Shown here piece after piece: positions 522 to 10,502 of a stretch of 64,000 bases of DNA. The position numbers and the translations under genes were made by a program. The DNA is from Acidobacteriota bacterium. GTDB lineage: Bacteria; Acidobacteriota; Vicinamibacteria; Vicinamibacterales; UBA2999. The stretch spans positions 1 through 64,000 of the forward strand of contig JAEUQR010000022.1 of assembly GCA_016789705.1 (NCBI GenBank). The letters are read 5' to 3'. The first letter of the stretch is position 1. Every line of letters begins with the position of its first letter. A model generated the notes under the pieces. It did not search any database. It was not told where the DNA came from and saw only the letters and a program-made list of their open reading frames with translations.

Positions 522-3074
522 CTAGGGGCGGCCGGCCGCCGCCGCTTCCTTGCCGCGCGCCAGATAGATGTCGCGCGCTTCCTTGAACTGGCCGAGCACG
601 TGCGCCTTTTCCTTGTCGCTGCGCCAGCCCGGGTCTTTGTCGGCCATCGCCGTCAGCTTGTCGATCCAGCGCACGAAGTAGTCGGCCGAGGCGGCGCTGC
701 GGATGGGCTGCGTGCCGACGGTGACGAAGATCGGGTTGGTCACGGCCATCGGCCGCGAGTTCTCGACCGGGAAGGTGCGCGGCGCGCCGATCGCGCGCAG
801 CGAGTACCAGCCGCTCGCCTTGAGGTCGAGCGGCAGCTCGAAGGAGGCGCTGCGCTTGTCGCCGGTGAGCGGAATCGTGTGCACCACCTTGCCGCCCGAG
901 ACGAGTTCGAAGCGCTCGACGCCCACCATCGACTGCAGCGTGCCGCGGAACGTCACGCGGCCGCCGGAGGCCGGCAGCGTCACTTCCTCGCCCATCGTGG
1001 CGTCGTTGCCGCTGAACTCGAGCAGCGGTCCGTTGGTGACGAAGCCCTTGCCGGCGAGCATCGCGCTCATCCAGTTCTCCCAGGTGAGCGGCCGATCGCC
1101 GAGGTGGAAGTAGCCGCGCGACACGCCCACGAGTTCGACGCGGTGCAGGCTCGAGATCGAGTCTTCGCCGCCCGTGACCGGCACGCGGAAGCCGTTGTTG
1201 AGCGTGTGGTACCACACCGTGAGCACGGCATCACCCGCGCTCTGCGACCACAGCTCGTGGTAGCTGAGCGAGCCGAGCGCGACGTCCACCGGGAACCCCT
1301 TGGCCGTGCCGAGGCTGCCCTCGAGCGGGTCGGCGTCGCCGGCGTACGGGTGCACGTAGGCGCCGATGGCGCCCTGCTGCTTCGCGTAGCGGAAGATGTC
1401 GGTGTTCGATGGATACAGGCTGCCGATGCCGGTGCCCTCGTAGCCGGTCACGAACGGCGACACCAGGTTGTTCTTCAGGTTGAAGAGCGAGATGTGGCCG
1501 TAGAACGGCGGCCGGTATTCCTGGCCGACGTGCATCACGTAGCCGTCCTTCGACAGCGGATGCAGCGACTGGCCGGGCGTGTAGTGCTGGTAGTCGAGCA
1601 CGCGGTTGTCCTTGTTGGCCACCTGCAGGCTGGTCATGCCCATGTCTTCGGCGCGGGCCATCATCAGCATGTTCTCGGGCGTGTTGTGCAGGTTGCCCGC
1701 GTAGTTCATGTGCACGTGGTTGCTGCCCGACTGCCAGCCGCGGGCGCCGAAATCGACCATCCGCTTCATCCGCAGCGTGACGTTGTTCGTCGAGCCCGGC
1801 TTGATGTCGATGGTCGTGGTCGCGAGCTCGTACTCGAAGCCGTGCGTCGCCTCGATCTTGAAGGCGCCAACGGGCGCCCGGGTGATGTAGTGGCCGGGCG
1901 TGTGGAAGAGGTGCCGGTTGAGCGTGGCGAGCCGCTCGTACGAGTCCGGCGGCGTGTAGGGCTTGCCGTCGGCGGCCGTGTGATAGACACGCGCTGCCAG
2001 TTCCGCGCCGGTTGCATCATCGACGATGCGCACGGACACCGTGCCCATCGGCCGCATGTAGCGCCGTTCGGCGATCCGCACGATGTGCTGCTCACCGCCC
2101 CACGACTTCATCGTCTTCAGTTGCGGAATGCCTTCTTCGTTCGAGATGTAAGCGATCCACTCGCCGTCGGGTGACCAGCGCGGCAGGAAGTTGTCGTGAC
2201 CGCTGAAGGTCATCTTGTAGGGCTCGCCGCCCACCGTGGGCAGCACGAAGAGTTCGGTGTACTGGCCGCCGAGATGCGAGGCGTAGACCATGCGCTTGCC
2301 GTCGGGCGACCACTGCGGCCGCGTGCGATAGAGCGTCTCCTCCTTGTGGATCACCTTCGCCCGCGGCGTCGCCATGACGTTCGGTTCGACCGGCACGCGC
2401 CAGATGCCGCCCGAGCCGAGCGGGATGCCGCGATTCGAGACGAGCAGCAGCTCCTTGCCGTCCGGCGAGAAGGCAGGCGAGATGTGCACGTCCACATCGC
2501 CGAAGTAGAGGCGATCGCGGCCGAACGAGTTATCGGTCGTCACCTGGACGCTCTTGCCCGGCTTGCCGTCCACGATGTCCATCACGAACACGTTGAAGTA
2601 GCCGTTCGGCGCCGTCGAGACGTAGGCGAGGCGCCTGCCGTCCGGCGACCAGGCCGGTTCGTGGTTCACGTGCGGCCCGGTCGTCAGGTCCACCGACGCG
2701 CCGGTGGCCAGGTTCAGCAGCCGCAGGTTGATGCTCTTCGCGTCGTCGTCGGCTGTGTAGGCGAGCCACTTGCCGTCGGGTGAATACTCGGGCATCGACA
2801 GGTATTCGCGCGGCGAGTAGGCGAGCTCCTTGGCCACCGTGCTGCCCACCTCGATCGTCCAGATCGAGCCGTCCATCGCGAAGGCGATGCGCTTGCCGTC
2901 CGGCGACCACGACGGCCACCACGGCGTGCTGCTCGCCGCCGGCGCGAAGTAGTAGTTGTGCATGTAATTGCCACCCGTCTTCGCGTTCGGGTAGACCTGC
3001 GCCTCGACTCGCCCGGCGGCAAGGGCGGTGAGCAGCATGACGACGAGTCCCAGCGGGCGCGCAAGTGTCTTCAC
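522..3074 (-). CDS. Secreted TolB-propeller / PHP-type (CehA/McbA-like) metallohydrolase
   Basis: 850 residues. The start is a GTG at 3072-3074, chosen because GGAGG lies 6 bases upstream (3081-3085) and it begins a typical signal peptide (KTLARPLGL then a hydrophobic run ending VEAQ). The N-terminal half holds repeated W-S-P-D-G-K strands (PD40/TolB-like propeller blades). The C-terminal part resembles CehA/McbA family PHP metallohydrolases: HVH at residues 453-455 is the metal-binding HxH, with later His-rich segments (VHPYAG, GGEDS). Family members hydrolyse carbamates or amides, or are uncharacterised. The export signal places it in the periplasm or outside the cell. The substrate cannot be read from the sequence. 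Confidence 0.85.
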   Translation of the reverse strand: MKTLARPLGLVVMLLTALAAGRVEAQVYPNAKTGGNYMHNYYFAPAASSTPWWPSWSPDGKRIAFAMDGSIWTIEVGSTVAKELAYSPREYLSMPEYSPDGKWLAYTADDDAKSINLRLLNLATGASVDLTTGPHVNHEPAWSPDGRRLAYVSTAPNGYFNVFVMDIVDGKPGKSVQVTTDNSFGRDRLYFGDVDVHISPAFSPDGKELLLVSNRGIPLGSGGIWRVPVEPNVMATPRAKVIHKEETLYRTRPQWSPDGKRMVYASHLGGQYTELFVLPTVGGEPYKMTFSGHDNFLPRWSPDGEWIAYISNEEGIPQLKTMKSWGGEQHIVRIAERRYMRPMGTVSVRIVDDATGAELAARVYHTAADGKPYTPPDSYERLATLNRHLFHTPGHYITRAPVGAFKIEATHGFEYELATTTIDIKPGSTNNVTLRMKRMVDFGARGWQSGSNHVHMNYAGNLHNTPENMLMMARAEDMGMTSLQVANKDNRVLDYQHYTPGQSLHPLSKDGYVMHVGQEYRPPFYGHISLFNLKNNLVSPFVTGYEGTGIGSLYPSNTDIFRYAKQQGAIGAYVHPYAGDADPLEGSLGTAKGFPVDVALGSLSYHELWSQSAGDAVLTVWYHTLNNGFRVPVTGGEDSISSLHRVELVGVSRGYFHLGDRPLTWENWMSAMLAGKGFVTNGPLLEFSGNDATMGEEVTLPASGGRVTFRGTLQSMVGVERFELVSGGKVVHTIPLTGDKRSASFELPLDLKASGWYSLRAIGAPRTFPVENSRPMAVTNPIFVTVGTQPIRSAASADYFVRWIDKLTAMADKDPGWRSDKEKAHVLGQFKEARDIYLARGKEAAAAGRP

Positions 3075-3189
3075 GTGTATCCTCCGAAGTACGGGCGGTC
3101 GAACCGGCGTGAGTCTACACCCGGCGCCCCCCGATGACACCATCCGCGCGGACGGCGGGCGCCAGGTGGACAGCGGAGCGCCAGTCTGT

Positions 3190-4712: not shown

Positions 4713-6260
4713 ATGCCCTCGCTGGCCCTTGCCACCGACGCCCCGAAGATCACGCTGCGCAGCGCACCCGCCGTGCCCTACGACGGCGCCATCGCGGCCG
4801 CCCGCACCTGCTATTCGCCACGCGTCGTCGATGCCTCCGAAGTCACGGACAAACAGCGCGACTCGATCGGGCCGCTGACCTTCGAGGGCGGGCACCACAC
4901 GGTCTTCCAGCACGCGCACTTCGAGTTCGGCCTCGAGAACATCTCGCGCCAGTTCGTCTGGAGCGTGCTGCACGCGTATCCCTTCTACAACTCGGAGCAG
5001 TCGAGCCAGCGCTACGTGAAGCTCCGGGAGCCGCGCGCCTTCGTGCCGCCAATCACCGGCGAGGCGCTGCGGGTCTACGAGCAGTCGGTGCTCTCGGCGT
5101 GGGACTACTACGCGGAGCTCTCGGCGCTGCTCAAGGACGACGCCTGGGCCATCCTGAAGGAGCTGCGCTACCTGCGGCCGTCGAACAGCCCCGAGCGGCA
5201 CAAGGCGGTCGAGCGCGAAGCCGAGAAGAAGGCCATCGAAACGGCCCGCTACGTCATCCCGATTGCCGCCTTCACGTCGATGGTGCACACGGTCTCGGGA
5301 CTCGTGCTGCACCGCCTGCACCGGATGCTGAGCGCCGGCGACACGCCGCACGAAGCGCGGCTCGTCATCGGCGCGATGGTCGAGCTCGTGAAGAGCGTCG
5401 ACCCGATGTTCTTCGAGAAGGTCGGCCTCGACACGCTCGCGAGCGACGAACTTCCGGAGGCCGCGTTTCCGCGGGCCAGAGCCGGCGGCGATGCGTTCGC
5501 CGCCGCGTTCGACGCCCGTCTCGGCGGCCGCGTGTCACGGCTGCGCGACTGGTCGTCGGATGCGGAAGGTGTCGTTGGTGATGCCGTGCGCGCCACCTTC
5601 GGCCTCGACGCCGCCGACCTGCCGGACGACGAGGCCATCGACCGGGTGATGAACCCGGCCCGCAACCTCTACCGCGTGGACATGCTGAACGTGTCGCACC
5701 ACTCGCCGATGATGCGGGCGCTGCACCACGTGGCCTACGTGTTCGAGAAGAAACTCAGCCACACCGCCGATTCGCAGGATCAGCGCCACCGCATGGTGCC
5801 GGCCTCGCGCCCGCTCATGACGTTCGCCGACACGGCGGCGCCGGATGTTGTGACGCCGCGGCTGCTGCGGCAGAACCCGCGCGCGCTCGCCGTCTACGAA
5901 CGCGCGATCGCCGAGGCCTGGGCGGCGAAGAACCGCCTGCTCGAACTTGGCGTGCCGCTCGAGTACGCGCTCTATCTGCTGCCGAACGCCAAGGCGCTGC
6001 GTCTCGTGGAGTCGGGGAGCCTGCTGTCGCTGCAGCACAAGTGGACGCTGCGCACCTGCTTCAACGCACAGGAAGAGATCTATCTCGCGTCCATGGACGA
6101 GATCGCCCAGGTGCAGGACGTCCATCCGCGGCTCGGCCGGTTCCTCGGGCCGCCGTGCGTGCTGCGCAACCGGATCGTCTCGCCCCGCTGCACCGAAGGC
6201 TCGCACTTCTGCGGCGTACCCGTGTGGAACAGCTTCCCGCAGGCCGTGCGCCGGCTGTAA
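4713..6260 (+). CDS. Double-domain FAD-dependent thymidylate synthase-like protein (ThyX family)
   Basis: 515 residues, about twice a normal ThyX (220-250). Domain 1 (about 10-235) has the ThyX core GGHHTVFQHAHFEF followed by SEQSSQRY (94-101), but the RHR triad that should precede it is replaced (VLHAYPF). Domain 2 (about 290-515) has a second core (SHHSPMMRALHH) and keeps RHR at 358-360, but lacks SxRY. The C terminus (RTCFNAQEEI) matches the ThyX end. ThyX makes dTMP from dUMP using methylenetetrahydrofolate and FAD; whether this split arrangement is active cannot be told from sequence. A -10 box lies 6 bases before the ATG. Confidence 0.85.
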   Translation: MPSLALATDAPKITLRSAPAVPYDGAIAAARTCYSPRVVDASEVTDKQRDSIGPLTFEGGHHTVFQHAHFEFGLENISRQFVWSVLHAYPFYNSEQSSQRYVKLREPRAFVPPITGEALRVYEQSVLSAWDYYAELSALLKDDAWAILKELRYLRPSNSPERHKAVEREAEKKAIETARYVIPIAAFTSMVHTVSGLVLHRLHRMLSAGDTPHEARLVIGAMVELVKSVDPMFFEKVGLDTLASDELPEAAFPRARAGGDAFAAAFDARLGGRVSRLRDWSSDAEGVVGDAVRATFGLDAADLPDDEAIDRVMNPARNLYRVDMLNVSHHSPMMRALHHVAYVFEKKLSHTADSQDQRHRMVPASRPLMTFADTAAPDVVTPRLLRQNPRALAVYERAIAEAWAAKNRLLELGVPLEYALYLLPNAKALRLVESGSLLSLQHKWTLRTCFNAQEEIYLASMDEIAQVQDVHPRLGRFLGPPCVLRNRIVSPRCTEGSHFCGVPVWNSFPQAVRRL

Positions 6261-6277
6261 CGCCGCCGAGACTCCGC

Positions 6278-6979
6278 GTGGCCTGGCTGGCGCATCTCTA
6301 CACGGCCTCGGGGGCGGCCACGGCCCTGGCCGCCGTGCTGGCGCTCGAAGCCGGTGACCTGCGCGCCACGCTCCTCTGGCTCGTTCTCGCCGTCGTCATC
6401 GACGCGACGGACGGCGTGCTCGCCCGGGCGCTCCACGTGAAGGAACGTCTGCCGTGGTTCGACGGCGGCACGCTCGACAACGTCGTCGACTACCTGACGT
6501 ACGTGTTCGTGCCGGCGCTCATCGTCGCGAAGGCCGGCCTCGTGCCGCCGTCGCTCGCCCTGCCGATCGGCGCCGCCATGCTCATCGCCAGCGGCTACGG
6601 CTTCAGCCGCGCCGACGCGAAGGTGGCGACGACCGACTACTTCTTCACCGGCTTTCCCTCGTACTGGAACCTCGTGGTCGTGTACCTCGTGGACTGGCGC
6701 CTGTCGCCGGTGGTCAATACCGGCATTCTGGCGCTGCTCGTCGTGCTCGTGTTCGTGCCGGTGCGCTACGTCTACCCGTCGCGCACGGTCACCTGGCGCC
6801 CGGTCACGATCGGGCTCGGCGCGATCTGGGGCGTGTGCCTCGCCATGGTGATCTGGCGGCTGCCGGAGCCCGGCGGGCCGTGGTCGTGGCTCGCCCTCGT
6901 GTTCCCGGTGTACTACGTGGCGCTGTCGCTGCGCCTCAGCGTGGATGAGCGGCGCCGCCGTGCGATACCATCGCCGTGA
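6278..6979 (+). CDS. pcs: Phosphatidylcholine synthase (CDP-alcohol phosphatidyltransferase)
   Basis: 233 residues from the GTG at 6278. The family condenses CDP-diacylglycerol with choline in the inner membrane. The CDP-alcohol motif is seen as D42, D45-G46, A49-R50, then G63, D67 and D71. The longer spacing between the AR and G elements, with VKERLPWFDGG in between, is that of Pcs rather than of ordinary phosphatidyltransferases. About seven hydrophobic segments follow. The start is uncertain because no ribosome site is clear. The stop TGA overlaps the ATG of the next small gene (ATGA), so the two are very likely one transcript. Confidence 0.85.
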   Translation: MAWLAHLYTASGAATALAAVLALEAGDLRATLLWLVLAVVIDATDGVLARALHVKERLPWFDGGTLDNVVDYLTYVFVPALIVAKAGLVPPSLALPIGAAMLIASGYGFSRADAKVATTDYFFTGFPSYWNLVVVYLVDWRLSPVVNTGILALLVVLVFVPVRYVYPSRTVTWRPVTIGLGAIWGVCLAMVIWRLPEPGGPWSWLALVFPVYYVALSLRLSVDERRRRAIPSP

Positions 6980-7209
6980 TGCCCGCCGCATTTTCTGCCG
7001 TCCTCATCTTCGGCAAGGACACCTGACCCTACACGCTGGCCGCCCGTGAGGCGTACGAAGCGAAGGGGCCCGTCACCTACGTGAACGCGAAGCGCGATGC
7101 CGACGGCCTTGCGCGCATGCTCGAACACTCCGGCGGGCAGCGTCGCGTGCCGGTCATCGTCGACGCCGGCGCCGTCACCATCGGCTACGGCGGCACCTGA
7201 GGGGTGTGA
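6979..7209 (+). CDS. Glutaredoxin-like selenoprotein with two in-frame UGA (Sec) codons, ending U-X-X-stop
   Basis: The frame ATG (6979) to TGA (7207-7209) gives 76 residues if the TGAs at 7024-7026 (residue 16) and 7198-7200 (residue 74) are read as selenocysteine. It follows a glutaredoxin fold: strand VLIFGKDT, then U-P-Y-T where Grx has CPYC, helix LAAREAYEAKG, strand VTYVNAKRD, helix LARMLEHSGG, the cis-Pro segment RVPVI, strand AVTIGYGG, then T-U-G-V-stop. Both UGAs occupy expected redox positions, and the sequence stays Grx-like on both sides of the first, which argues against a pseudogene. From memory, an annotation family called 'UXX-star' has this C-terminal pattern; I could not check it. 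The start overlaps the pcs stop. It needs selA/selB/selC/selD elsewhere in the genome. Confidence 0.85.
7033..7054 (+). promoter_or_regulatory. Possible SECIS hairpin after the first UGA
   Basis: Six bases after the UGA at 7024-7026, ACGCT (7033-7037) can pair with GCGT plus A (7049-7054, one bulged G). The apical loop begins with GG (7038-7039). This fits the loose bacterial SECIS pattern, but the stem is short and constrained by coding. Confidence 0.35.
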
Positions 7210-7238
7210 CACGGCGGCCGGTCGGGCCGCCACACCCC
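7201..7238 (+). promoter_or_regulatory. Strong SECIS-type hairpin directly after the second UGA
   Basis: GGGGTGT (7201-7207) pairs with ACACCCC (7232-7238). After a five-base bulge (7208-7212), GGCGGCC (7213-7219) pairs with GGCCGCC (7225-7231). The loop is GGTCG. A GGUC loop about 19 bases after the UGA is the hallmark of the E. coli fdhF SECIS that SelB recognises. The stem covers the last two codons and the stop, and extends into the 3' untranslated region. No T-run follows, so it is not a standard terminator. Confidence 0.75.
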
Positions 7239-7282
7239 CTGCACCCACCTCAGGCGGACGCAGCCGCCCCGGACCCGGGCGT

Positions 7283-7311
7283 TTGACAGTTTGTGAAAGA
7301 CTTCACAAAAT
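7283..7311 (+). promoter_or_regulatory. Exporter-operon promoter with Rex-type operator between -35 and -10
   Basis: A perfect -35 (TTGACA, 7283-7288), a 17-base spacer and a -10-like CAAAAT (7306-7311). The spacer and -10 are overlaid by the perfect inverted repeat TTTGTGAAAGACTTCACAAA (7290-7309). This contains TTGTGAA-N4-TTCACAA, the consensus of the NADH-sensing repressor Rex. It also satisfies the CRP pattern TGTGA-N6-TCACA, but its position over the core promoter fits a repressor better. Confidence 0.7.
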
Positions 7312-7338
7312 CGGGGTATGGGCGTGTGCGAGGTGCCA

Positions 7339-8181
7339 ATGTCCCGTTCCCGCCGTGTGTTCCGCCCGGCGGCGCTTGCGGTCTTCGTGATTGCCGGTGC
7401 CCTGATGGTCACCGCGGCGCCAGGAGCGCAGCCGGCCGCGGCGCCGGTTGAAGGCAGCGCGGACTGGGTGGCCGCGCGCATCGACGCCCGTGACACCGGC
7501 CGCGACTCGCGCCTGGCGATGACGATGCGCCTGGCCGACCGGCAGGGGCGCACGCGCGAGCGCACGCTCGTCATCACCACCCTCGCTGCCGCCGGCGCCC
7601 GCGGCGACCGCGTGCTCGTGCGCTTCCTGGGTCCGGCCGACATCCGTGGCACCGGATTCCTCGTCTGGGAGCACGCGCAGAAGGACGACGAACGCTTCCT
7701 CTACCTGCCGGCGCTCGGCCGCGTGCGCCGCATCGCCGGCGCCGAAGCGCAGGAGAGCTTCGTTGGGAGCGACCTGAGCTACGAAGACATTGGTGGCCGC
7801 AGGCTGACCGACTACACCTACCGGATGGTCGAGGCTACCGCCGCGTGGACCGACACGCAGGGCGCGTCGCACCCGGCCTGGCGGATCGAGTCGCTGGCGA
7901 AGGACGCCGGCGCGCGGTATCCGAAGGTGCAGTCGCTCGTGCGCAAGGACGCCTTCGTCATCGTCGAGGCCCAGGTGTTCAACCGCCGCGGCGAACGCGA
8001 GAAGCAGTACACCGTCTCGCGGCTCGAGCGCCCGGGCGGCATCTGGACGGTCATGGACGCCACGATGGCCAACGAGGCGACGCGCACGCGCACGACGCTC
8101 GTCGTGACCGAGGCCCGCTACAACACCGGCCTCGCCGAGGACGCCTTCAGCCGGCGTGAACTGGAGCAGGGCGCCCGGTGA
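7339..8181 (+). CDS. Periplasmic outer-membrane lipoprotein-sorting-like protein (LolA fold) of an RND export operon
   Basis: 280 residues from the ATG at 7339, preceded by GAGGTG and starting a clean signal peptide (MSRSRRV, hydrophobic core, ending near APGAQ). An alternative ATG at 7318 lies 6 bases after the -10 box and would be leaderless, giving 287 residues. The mature part (RVLVRFLGPADIRGTGFLVWEH, ERFLYLPALGRVRRIAG) is characteristic of the LolA-like proteins found beside HAE3-type RND exporters. It probably handles a lipid or lipoprotein in the periplasm. Its stop overlaps the RND start. Confidence 0.85.
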   Translation: MSRSRRVFRPAALAVFVIAGALMVTAAPGAQPAAAPVEGSADWVAARIDARDTGRDSRLAMTMRLADRQGRTRERTLVITTLAAAGARGDRVLVRFLGPADIRGTGFLVWEHAQKDDERFLYLPALGRVRRIAGAEAQESFVGSDLSYEDIGGRRLTDYTYRMVEATAAWTDTQGASHPAWRIESLAKDAGARYPKVQSLVRKDAFVIVEAQVFNRRGEREKQYTVSRLERPGGIWTVMDATMANEATRTRTTLVVTEARYNTGLAEDAFSRRELEQGAR

Positions 8182-10502
8182 GTCCGTCGGCGCGGCTGGC
8201 CCGCATCCTCTACCGGTGGCGGCTGCCGATCACCGCGCTCGTGCTCGCCGGCGCCCTGGTCTGCGCCGGCAAGGCCAACCTCAATAACATCAACAACGAC
8301 CTGAGCGCCTGGGTCGCGACGGACTCGCCGGAATACGTCGAGTACGAACGTTTTCGCCGTGAGTTCGGCGGTGGCCGCACGCTCATCATCGCCGTCGCCG
8401 GCGAGGGCATCTTCACGCCAGACGGCCTGCGCTACATCGACCGCATCTCGCGCGAGATCGCCCGCCTGCCGCTCATCGAACGTGTGCAGAGCCTGGCGAC
8501 GGCGAACGTCGTGCGCCAGCTGCCGCCACAGGACGGCGACGACGGCGGCATCGAGGTGACGCCGCTCGTCGGCGATCGGCTCGACACGGCCACGGGCGCC
8601 GCCGACGTGCGCGAGGACGCGCTCGACGATCCGCTGCTGCGCGGCGATCTCGTCTCGGCGGATGGCCGCGTGACGGCGCTCGTCATCTCCACCGACGAAG
8701 AGCGGATCGACGCCGTGCGCGGCGAGGTCATCGAGCAGATCCGCGGCATCGTCGACACGGCGCGGCCGCCCGGCCTCGCCACCTACTTCAACGGTCCGCT
8801 CGAAATCAGCGAAACCTACAACCGCATCACCCTGGCCAACCAGCGCGACCTGACGCCGCCGGTGCTCGGCATCACCATCATCGCGCTCTACGCGATGTTC
8901 CGCTCGGTCCGCAAGGTGGTGCTGCTCGTCTTCGCCATCGGCGTGAGCGTGCTCTGGACGCTCGGGCTCTACGTGCTGCTCGGCTACGAGATGAACGTCC
9001 TCACGAGCATGCTGACGCCGCTCGTGGTCGTGCTGGCCGTGGCGGACGACGTGCACATCGTGCAGCACTTCGACCGCGAGATGCGCGAGCACGGTGACCG
9101 GCAGCGGGCGTTCGAATCCACCATCGCGCACCTCGTGACGCCGCTCTTCGGGGCCAGCGCGACGACGGCACTCGGCCTGCTGTCGCTGGCGACGAGCGAT
9201 GTCGTCGCCGTGCACTCCTTCGGCATCGGCGCCGCCACGGGCGTGATGGTCGACATGATGGTCTCGCTCGTGCTCGTGCCGACGCTGCTCGTCTGGATGC
9301 GGCCCGACACCCACACGCCGCCGCAGGAAACGTGGCTGCTCGAGCCGCTGCGCCGCCTCGGCCGCTGGTCGTTCACCCACGCCACGCCGGTACTCGCCGT
9401 GACCGGGCTCGTGCTCGTGGCCGCCGTGGCCGGTGTGCTGCGGCTGCGGGTGGACACCAACCACGTGAACTTCTTCGCGCCCGGGCATCCGCTGCACGAG
9501 TCGGCCGACGTGATGGACCGCGAACTGGCCGGCATCTACAGCTTCAACGTGATGCTCGACGGGCCGCCAGACGCCATCGCCAGGCCCGATGTGATGGCGC
9601 GCATGGACCGCCTGGCCGAGGCGCTGCGCCGGCAGCCGCAGGTGCGCAAGGTCACGTCGGTCGTCGATTACGTGAAGCGCACCAACCAGCGGCTGGAGGG
9701 CGGCGCCGAGGCTGCCTACGTGCTGCCGGCGGCGCCGGGCGGCATCGCGCAGGAGCTCTTCGTGTTCGGGCTGTCGGACGAAGGCCGCACCGAACTCGAG
9801 CGCGTCGTCGCCAGCGACTACAGCCGCGCGCACCTCACGGTGAAGCTGGCGTCGATGAGCTCGGATGTGGTCTTCGAGCAGATCTTCGAGGCCGAGCGCC
9901 TCGCGCGTGACGCCTTCGCCGGCTCGGACGTGACGCCCACCGTCACCGGCGCCGGCCGCATCTTCGCCACGCTCGATCACTACCTCGTGACCTCGCAGGT
10001 CACGAGCTTCGGCACCGCCTTCGTCACGGTGTTCGCGGTGATCTTCCTGGTCTTCCGCTCGGCGAAGTTCGGCCTGCTGGCGATTGTCGCGAACGTCGTG
10101 CCGGTGGCGGCCGTGCTCGGCCTGATGGGCTGGATCGGCATCTCGCTGAACGTCGCCACGATCATGGTGGCGAGCGTGGCGCTCGGCGTCGTCGACGACG
10201 ACACCATCCACTTCATCGGCCGCTTCCGGCGCGAGACGGCCCACGGTGCCACGGCCGACGTGGCGGTGGAGCGCGCCGCCATGGACGAAGGGCGCGCGTC
10301 GCTCACGACCGCGCTCGTCAACAGCCTGAGCTTCGGGGTGCTCTGGTTCTCGGAGTACAAACCCACCGCCTGGTTCGGGTCGTTGCTGGCCGTCACGATG
10401 GCCGTGGCCTTCCTGGCCGAGATCTTCATCGTGCCGGCCGTGATCGCCCGCTTCCCGAGGCTCTACGGATCGGCGGCCCGGCCGGCCGTGGCGGCGGCGT
10501 GA
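8178..10502 (+). CDS. RND superfamily exporter, HAE3/MMPL-like
   Basis: 774 residues in two homologous halves, each a hydrophobic helix, a large periplasmic loop and five further helices. The GTG start at 8178 overlaps the previous stop (GTGA). Charged membrane motifs expected in proton-driven RND pumps are present: AVADDVHIVQHF in the first half and VVDDDTIHFIGRF in the second. HAE3 proteins export hydrophobic molecules such as hopanoids or other lipids and do not need a membrane-fusion protein. With the LolA-like protein before it and the outer-membrane protein after it, it probably moves a lipid-like substrate to the outer membrane. Confidence 0.9.
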   Translation: MSPSARLARILYRWRLPITALVLAGALVCAGKANLNNINNDLSAWVATDSPEYVEYERFRREFGGGRTLIIAVAGEGIFTPDGLRYIDRISREIARLPLIERVQSLATANVVRQLPPQDGDDGGIEVTPLVGDRLDTATGAADVREDALDDPLLRGDLVSADGRVTALVISTDEERIDAVRGEVIEQIRGIVDTARPPGLATYFNGPLEISETYNRITLANQRDLTPPVLGITIIALYAMFRSVRKVVLLVFAIGVSVLWTLGLYVLLGYEMNVLTSMLTPLVVVLAVADDVHIVQHFDREMREHGDRQRAFESTIAHLVTPLFGASATTALGLLSLATSDVVAVHSFGIGAATGVMVDMMVSLVLVPTLLVWMRPDTHTPPQETWLLEPLRRLGRWSFTHATPVLAVTGLVLVAAVAGVLRLRVDTNHVNFFAPGHPLHESADVMDRELAGIYSFNVMLDGPPDAIARPDVMARMDRLAEALRRQPQVRKVTSVVDYVKRTNQRLEGGAEAAYVLPAAPGGIAQELFVFGLSDEGRTELERVVASDYSRAHLTVKLASMSSDVVFEQIFEAERLARDAFAGSDVTPTVTGAGRIFATLDHYLVTSQVTSFGTAFVTVFAVIFLVFRSAKFGLLAIVANVVPVAAVLGLMGWIGISLNVATIMVASVALGVVDDDTIHFIGRFRRETAHGATADVAVERAAMDEGRASLTTALVNSLSFGVLWFSEYKPTAWFGSLLAVTMAVAFLAEIFIVPAVIARFPRLYGSAARPAVAAA

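Follow-up and report, generated by a model that had tools for sequence, protein, structure and literature searches.

Gene locus and family assignment

The window (the whole 64,000-nucleotide stretch of DNA that was analyzed) contains a gene of 76 codons whose ATG, at 6979–6981, overlaps the stop codon of a phosphatidylcholine-synthase-like gene (pcs) in the sequence TGATG, 6977–6981. Reading of the frame at 6979–7209 gives the protein MPAAFSAVLIFGKDT-U-PYTLAAREAYEAKGPVTYVNAKRDADGLARMLEHSGGQRRVPVIVDAGAVTIGYGGT-U-GV-stop, with TGA at residues 16 and 74, in agreement with the original prediction made for this DNA (Table 1). The pcs product had its best match to NF045886 (E 2e-52), under the strict cut-off of that profile. 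The cis-proline is P58 in the alignment numbering and residue 59 when codons are counted, and was therefore taken as the Pro of RVPVI.

Table 1. Features of the selenoprotein locus (window positions).
Feature	Position	Strand	Description
Upstream phosphatidylcholine-synthase-like gene (pcs)	6281..6979	+	Neighbor only; profile match NF045886
UXX-star family 1 selenoprotein gene	6979..7209	+	76 residues, ATG to TGA stop
Sec16 UGA codon	7024..7026	+	U-P-Y-T, in the place of glutaredoxin CPYC
Putative SECIS-like hairpin of Sec16, coding region	7027..7067	+	Fold; Arg codon bias
Sec16 hairpin apical loop CGUGA	7045-7049	+	18 nt past UGA16
cis-Proline codon	7153..7155	+	Residue 59 counting codons from 6979; invariant in alignment
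Sec74 UGA codon	7198..7200	+	Third-last residue; UGA in all 30 phylum sequences and in 25 of 27 others
Putative 3' SECIS-type hairpin of Sec74	7201..7238	+	Mostly 3' UTR, includes stop codon; conserved place and loop
Sec74 hairpin stems	lower 7201-7207/7232-7238, upper 7213-7219/7225-7231	+	Covarying stem in homologues
Sec74 hairpin apical loop GGUCG	7220-7224	+	19 nt past UGA74
True stop codon, residue 77	7207..7209	+	UGA in window; UGA, UAG or UAA there in homologues

The protein matched NCBIfam NF041114 (UXX-star selenoprotein family 1, an equivalog model) with 107.5 bits against a cut-off of 72, over positions 1–70 of the 70 in the profile, and its Sec stands third from the end (U-X-X-stop) as in that family. 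Because this match is full-length and above the cut-off, the family is one that has already been curated, and a "UXX-star" family does exist in annotation models, as the original prediction had it. The claim that standard gene callers miss the gene applies to plain table-11 calling, and the gene was absent from the default table-11 ORF list of the window, but a curated equivalog model for the family is available at NCBI. Pfam Glutaredoxin (PF00462) was also matched, with 30.3 bits over a gathering threshold of 22.9. The profile match and the homologues described below confirm, at the level of sequence comparison, that the gene is a real two-selenocysteine member of UXX-star selenoprotein family 1; it is a plain member, with nothing setting it apart, and shares its two Sec residues with nearly all members in the phylum. 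According to their names, UXX-star families 2 (NF041211) and 3 (NF047338) and the HUGP/GUXX-star fusion family (NF045501) have in common a glutaredoxin-like domain ending U-X-X-stop, but the window protein matched them weakly (36–38 bits), far under their cut-offs of 97–325. A 2026 review lists the sister UXX-star families, with one Sec given for family 2 (PMC13188914); no paper on the biochemistry of family 1 was found in the literature searched.

Conservation of the two selenocysteine positions

Both TGA codons were found at identical places in 29 of the 30 phylum sequences, counting the window gene; residue 74 was UGA in all 30 and residue 16 in 29, the remaining sequence (L025) having Cys16. 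A separate scan with a pattern requiring Cys16 provided a second set of 27 relatives from Myxococcota, Thermodesulfobacteriota, Planctomycetota, Bacillota (Pelotomaculum) and two more Acidobacteriota, all read as Cys16, and the share of Cys16 is no frequency, since the scan selected for it. In this set UGA74 was kept in 25 of 27, the others having Cys74 (L087) and Ser74 (L094), so that Sec74 was present in 55 of the 57 homologues overall. The expectation that residues 16 and 74 would be Sec or Cys in every homologue thus held for all but one, the Ser74 gene. On a tree of the 57 sequences, which is weakly resolved because it was built on only 70 columns, the label of residue 16 changed 9 times, and at least 4 of these changes were forced by well-supported branches. 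This pattern makes Sec74 the nearly invariant selenium of the family, whereas residue 16 has switched repeatedly between Sec and Cys. It reverses the earlier view of U16 as the classic redox center to which U74 had been added. The Cys74 and Ser74 genes belong to sister Myxococcota lineages, and the Ser74 form, which keeps Cys16 alone, may have lost the two-center chemistry.

Recoding signals of the two UGA codons

The bacterial SECIS (bSECIS) model calls for an apical loop of 3–9 nt with G in the first two positions, located 16–37 nt from the UGA, and an MFE of -7.5 or lower (PMC13188914). The hairpin that follows UGA74 agrees with this model in its GGUCG loop, its distance of 19 nt and its folding energy of -28.7 kcal/mol (z -2.5 against shuffles). 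A script took the apical loop as the anchor for hairpins in homologues; shuffles and shifted windows were the controls. A best stem score of at least 15 together with a G[G/U] loop was found in 27 of the 30 phylum homologues; at eight shifted positions the count was 0–2 of 30. In all 27, the stem's first five pairs formed, with many two-sided changes, although the picking of best stems by the hairpin finder inflates such pairing counts, and the claim rests on the controls rather than on raw pairing. No weight is placed on a combined Fisher p value, which counts related sequences as if they were independent. The hairpin was seen again in 24 of the 25 Sec74 genes of the Cys16 set, and the Cys74 and Ser74 genes had weak hairpins, with scores of 10 and 13. 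MAFFT aligned the region poorly, owing to variation in stem and spacing, and an Rfam search of window positions 5500–9000 returned no match and no bacterial SECIS family. We also considered an intrinsic terminator and rejected it, since no T run follows the hairpin in the window; the distance from UGA74 and the G[G/U] loop are kept across homologues, which likewise rules it out, and the weak hairpins of the Cys74 and Ser74 relatives speak further against it.

This putative SECIS, which extends across and beyond the stop codon, was overlooked by the original prediction. The terminal stop in the 30 phylum sequences was UGA in 25, UAG in 4 and UAA in 1, and where it is UGA, as in the window, a Sec codon and a stop codon of the same identity stand nine bases apart beside one hairpin. 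UGA74 lies 19 nt from the apical loop, within the published range of 16–37 nt, and UGA77 lies 10 nt from it, outside that range; we offer this as a possible explanation of why the first would be decoded as Sec and the second would terminate translation. The locus could therefore serve as a compact natural test of discrimination by the ribosome and SelB. Reviews place bacterial SECIS elements inside coding regions (PMC13188914), or "often" so, and a conserved, covarying SECIS lying mostly in the 3' UTR contrasts with this placement. The nearest likeness is rat thioredoxin reductase engineered in E. coli, in which a SECIS after the stop serves a Sec near the C-terminus (PMC10778597, section 5.4); that element is man-made, whereas the arrangement in UXX-star family 1 appears natural and conserved. 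At three homologous loci we observed an ORF of a WLM/YgjP-like metallopeptidase, family f50 (L057, 7585-8010, minus strand; L059, 7546-8010, minus strand; L065, 5545-6006, plus strand). A same-strand ORF of this family runs uninterrupted through the 3' SECIS, so the hairpin may share sequence with the coding region of a gene downstream.

For Sec16, the fold of the window hairpin by itself (-16.5, z -0.56) was no better than that of shuffles. Its CGUGA loop, its distance of 18 nt and its energy are within the bSECIS model, and support is carried by codon usage. In 30 genes that are mainly Sec16 (L025, a Cys16 gene, is included), the Ala codon of the loop was GCC in 30 of 30, and the loop Arg codon was CGT in 24 of 30 and never CGC, compared with CGT in 13 of 114 other Arg codons of the same genes (p 8e-13). 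The Cys16 genes provide a natural control, in that CGT was used for the same Arg in 2 of 23 and CGC in 15 (p 2e-7); both p values are understated because the sequences are related, but the contrast still tracks Sec. Comparison among homologues shows, for each of the two Sec codons, a SECIS-type signal of its own.

Selenocysteine machinery and genomic context

The machinery for Sec insertion, proposed earlier as a check, was found in full in the same genome: profile searches detected SelA (528 bits), SelB (322 bits, with the C-terminal part) and SelD (353 bits), and a tRNA-Sec with anticodon TCA was present. The selD gene (L018, 1501-2424) has an in-frame TGA, suggesting that SelD is probably a selenoprotein itself. 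Across the phylum, NF041114 was above its cut-off in 34 of 297 genomes, and selA was present in 31 of these 34 compared with 160 of the 263 other genomes (Fisher p 2e-4); the three family genomes without selA are draft assemblies with 77–92% completeness.

The host genome encodes bshC of bacillithiol synthesis (459 bits), and a search for one glutathione-synthesis family, glutathione synthetase TIGR01380, gave no match. These two results together agree with a glutathione-independent redoxin. Clustering of 31 regions of up to 16 kb revealed that lineage-specific neighbors alone recur (a thioesterase, an MBL-fold hydrolase, a histidine kinase, a WLM/YgjP metallopeptidase and an HD/OB protein), and because of this no partner was assigned.

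Predicted structure

AlphaFold models, computed with Cys replacing Sec, had a pLDDT of 85.7 for the window protein (moderate confidence, five models ranging from 60 to 86) and of 96.7 for the homologue L051. Both depict a glutaredoxin fold, beta-alpha-beta-alpha-beta-beta, ending where glutaredoxins begin their last helix; the window protein stops at residue 76 after E65-68, with no further helix. Glutaredoxins were the top PDB matches in Foldseek, and the agreement of the profile matches and the models bears out the proposal that the protein is glutaredoxin-like. The redoxin-site features (cis-Pro, Thr after the CPY site, GG motif) are kept in the alignment, and the two details first read from the window alone, Thr in place of the second Cys and the Pro of the cis-Pro loop, are both invariant. 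With U-P-Y-T instead of C-X-X-C, the site is not that of a dithiol glutaredoxin. The suggested likeness to thioredoxin reductase goes no further than the C-terminal Sec: at 76 residues, with no FAD/NADPH domains bearing a C-terminal GCUG, the protein gives no other sign of relationship.

Escherichia coli glutaredoxin 3 (3grx, 1fov) was the best sequence match among solved structures, sharing the CPY motif and the TVP/VPV cis-Pro loop, but its second active-site Cys is Thr in the window protein, which also has no last helix and whose host gave no match to the glutathione synthetase model. The selenoprotein glutaredoxins of Clostridium oremlandii, cGrx1 (PDB 7c10/7c12) and cGrx2 (4tr0), were among the closest PDB matches in both sequence and fold. 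The natural proteins have an active-site Sec (reference 85 of PMC13188914). They have the same fold at full length, including the last helix, and a second, C-terminal Sec does not figure in their description.

In both models, DSSP placed the U-G dipeptide (74-75; 67-68 in L051) in a strand or bridge of two residues, and it also marked as strand or bridge the pair immediately preceding the cis-Pro (56-57; 48-49 in L051). Bridge partners were deduced from the DSSP letters, and the modeled Sec74-Gly75 tail likely pairs with the residues just before the cis-Pro. In glutaredoxins and thioredoxins, this site binds the backbone of glutathione or of the substrate. With the tail bridged there in the models, we infer that it may act as a built-in stand-in for glutathione that places Sec74 beside residue 16. 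Relative to the curated family, four observations are new: Sec74 is nearly invariant; a putative 3' SECIS spans the stop codon; codon usage marks a Sec16 signal, for which the Cys16 genes are a natural control; and the tail is docked in the models.

Possible function of the two selenocysteines

We give about even odds to the well-motivated reading that, in this two-Sec glutaredoxin-like protein, Sec74 serves residue 16 as its built-in resolving selenol. Within the U-P-Y-T site, the attack would be made by Sec16, or by Cys16 in other lineages. The C-terminal tail, as modeled, would fold back to bring Sec74 beside the cis-proline, into the place that glutathione takes in ordinary glutaredoxins, and Sec74 would then resolve the intermediate by closing a diselenide with Sec16, or a selenenyl-sulfide in Cys16 members. 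Such a protein could reduce disulfides or other oxidized substrates without glutathione. The intramolecular selenium bridge of the original prediction is made plausible by the models. The fuller proposal is more tentative and, in our judgment, somewhat short of probable: that the Sec tail replaces glutathione in the groove, that the protein forms a natural intramolecular diselenide, that this occurs in hosts without glutathione, and that a SECIS beyond the stop distinguishes the two UGAs by distance. As a candidate for an internal diselenide, and for a redoxin with a glutathione substitute of its own, the protein is a rare natural case.

It is conceivable, although we think it rather unlikely, that residue 16 (U16 or C16) performs the chemistry as a single site reduced by bacillithiol or thioredoxin reductase, and that U74 forms no bridge and faces a substrate such as peroxide, methionine sulfoxide or another protein, comparable to the exposed Sec of mammalian thioredoxin reductase. 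That enzyme uses its flexible C-terminal Sec as an electron shuttle, and the bacillithiol gene of the host would suit such a scheme, as would the service of a selenoprotein Grx to Sec-MsrA, known in Clostridium (reference 85 of PMC13188914). However, the tail is ordered rather than free in both models, and the conservation of Sec74 above that of residue 16 would be left unexplained if Sec74 were a mere accessory.

Slightly less credit is due to a role as metal or metalloid ligand, in which two selenols, or a thiol and a selenol, would bind soft metals such as Hg, Cu or As and so detoxify or traffic them, the redox appearance being inherited from the fold. The Sec of UXX-star proteins has been suggested to be a metal ligand (PMC13188914), and two close selenols would, from general chemistry, bind soft metals strongly. 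Yet metal-resistance genes do not recur among the annotated neighbors in the sample, and a pure chelator would not need the conserved cis-Pro, Thr after CPY and GG motif of the redoxin site.

We reject as highly improbable the possibility that UGA16 alone is recoded and UGA74 is the real stop. UGA is frequent as a stop, and the product would be shorter by only three residues, but the tail after residue 74 is conserved (mostly U-G-V), every homologue has a further stop exactly two codons later, as UAG or UAA in several, L087 has a Cys codon at this position, and Cys16 homologues with no other Sec keep both UGA74 and the SECIS hairpin. Two in-frame stops within so short a gene might suggest stops arisen by chance, through a sequencing error or gene decay, but this is refuted to near certainty by the recurrence of the same two codons in 29 of the 30 phylum sequences, which come from other species and families.

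Other genes in the window

A 515-residue ORF at 4713-6260 on the plus strand contains two ThyX-like stretches and matched TIGR02170 with 84.0 bits, just below the cut-off of 87.9, and appears to encode a doubled ThyX-like protein. On the minus strand at 522-3143, a CehA/McbA-family metallohydrolase domain is fused with a TolB-type beta-propeller.
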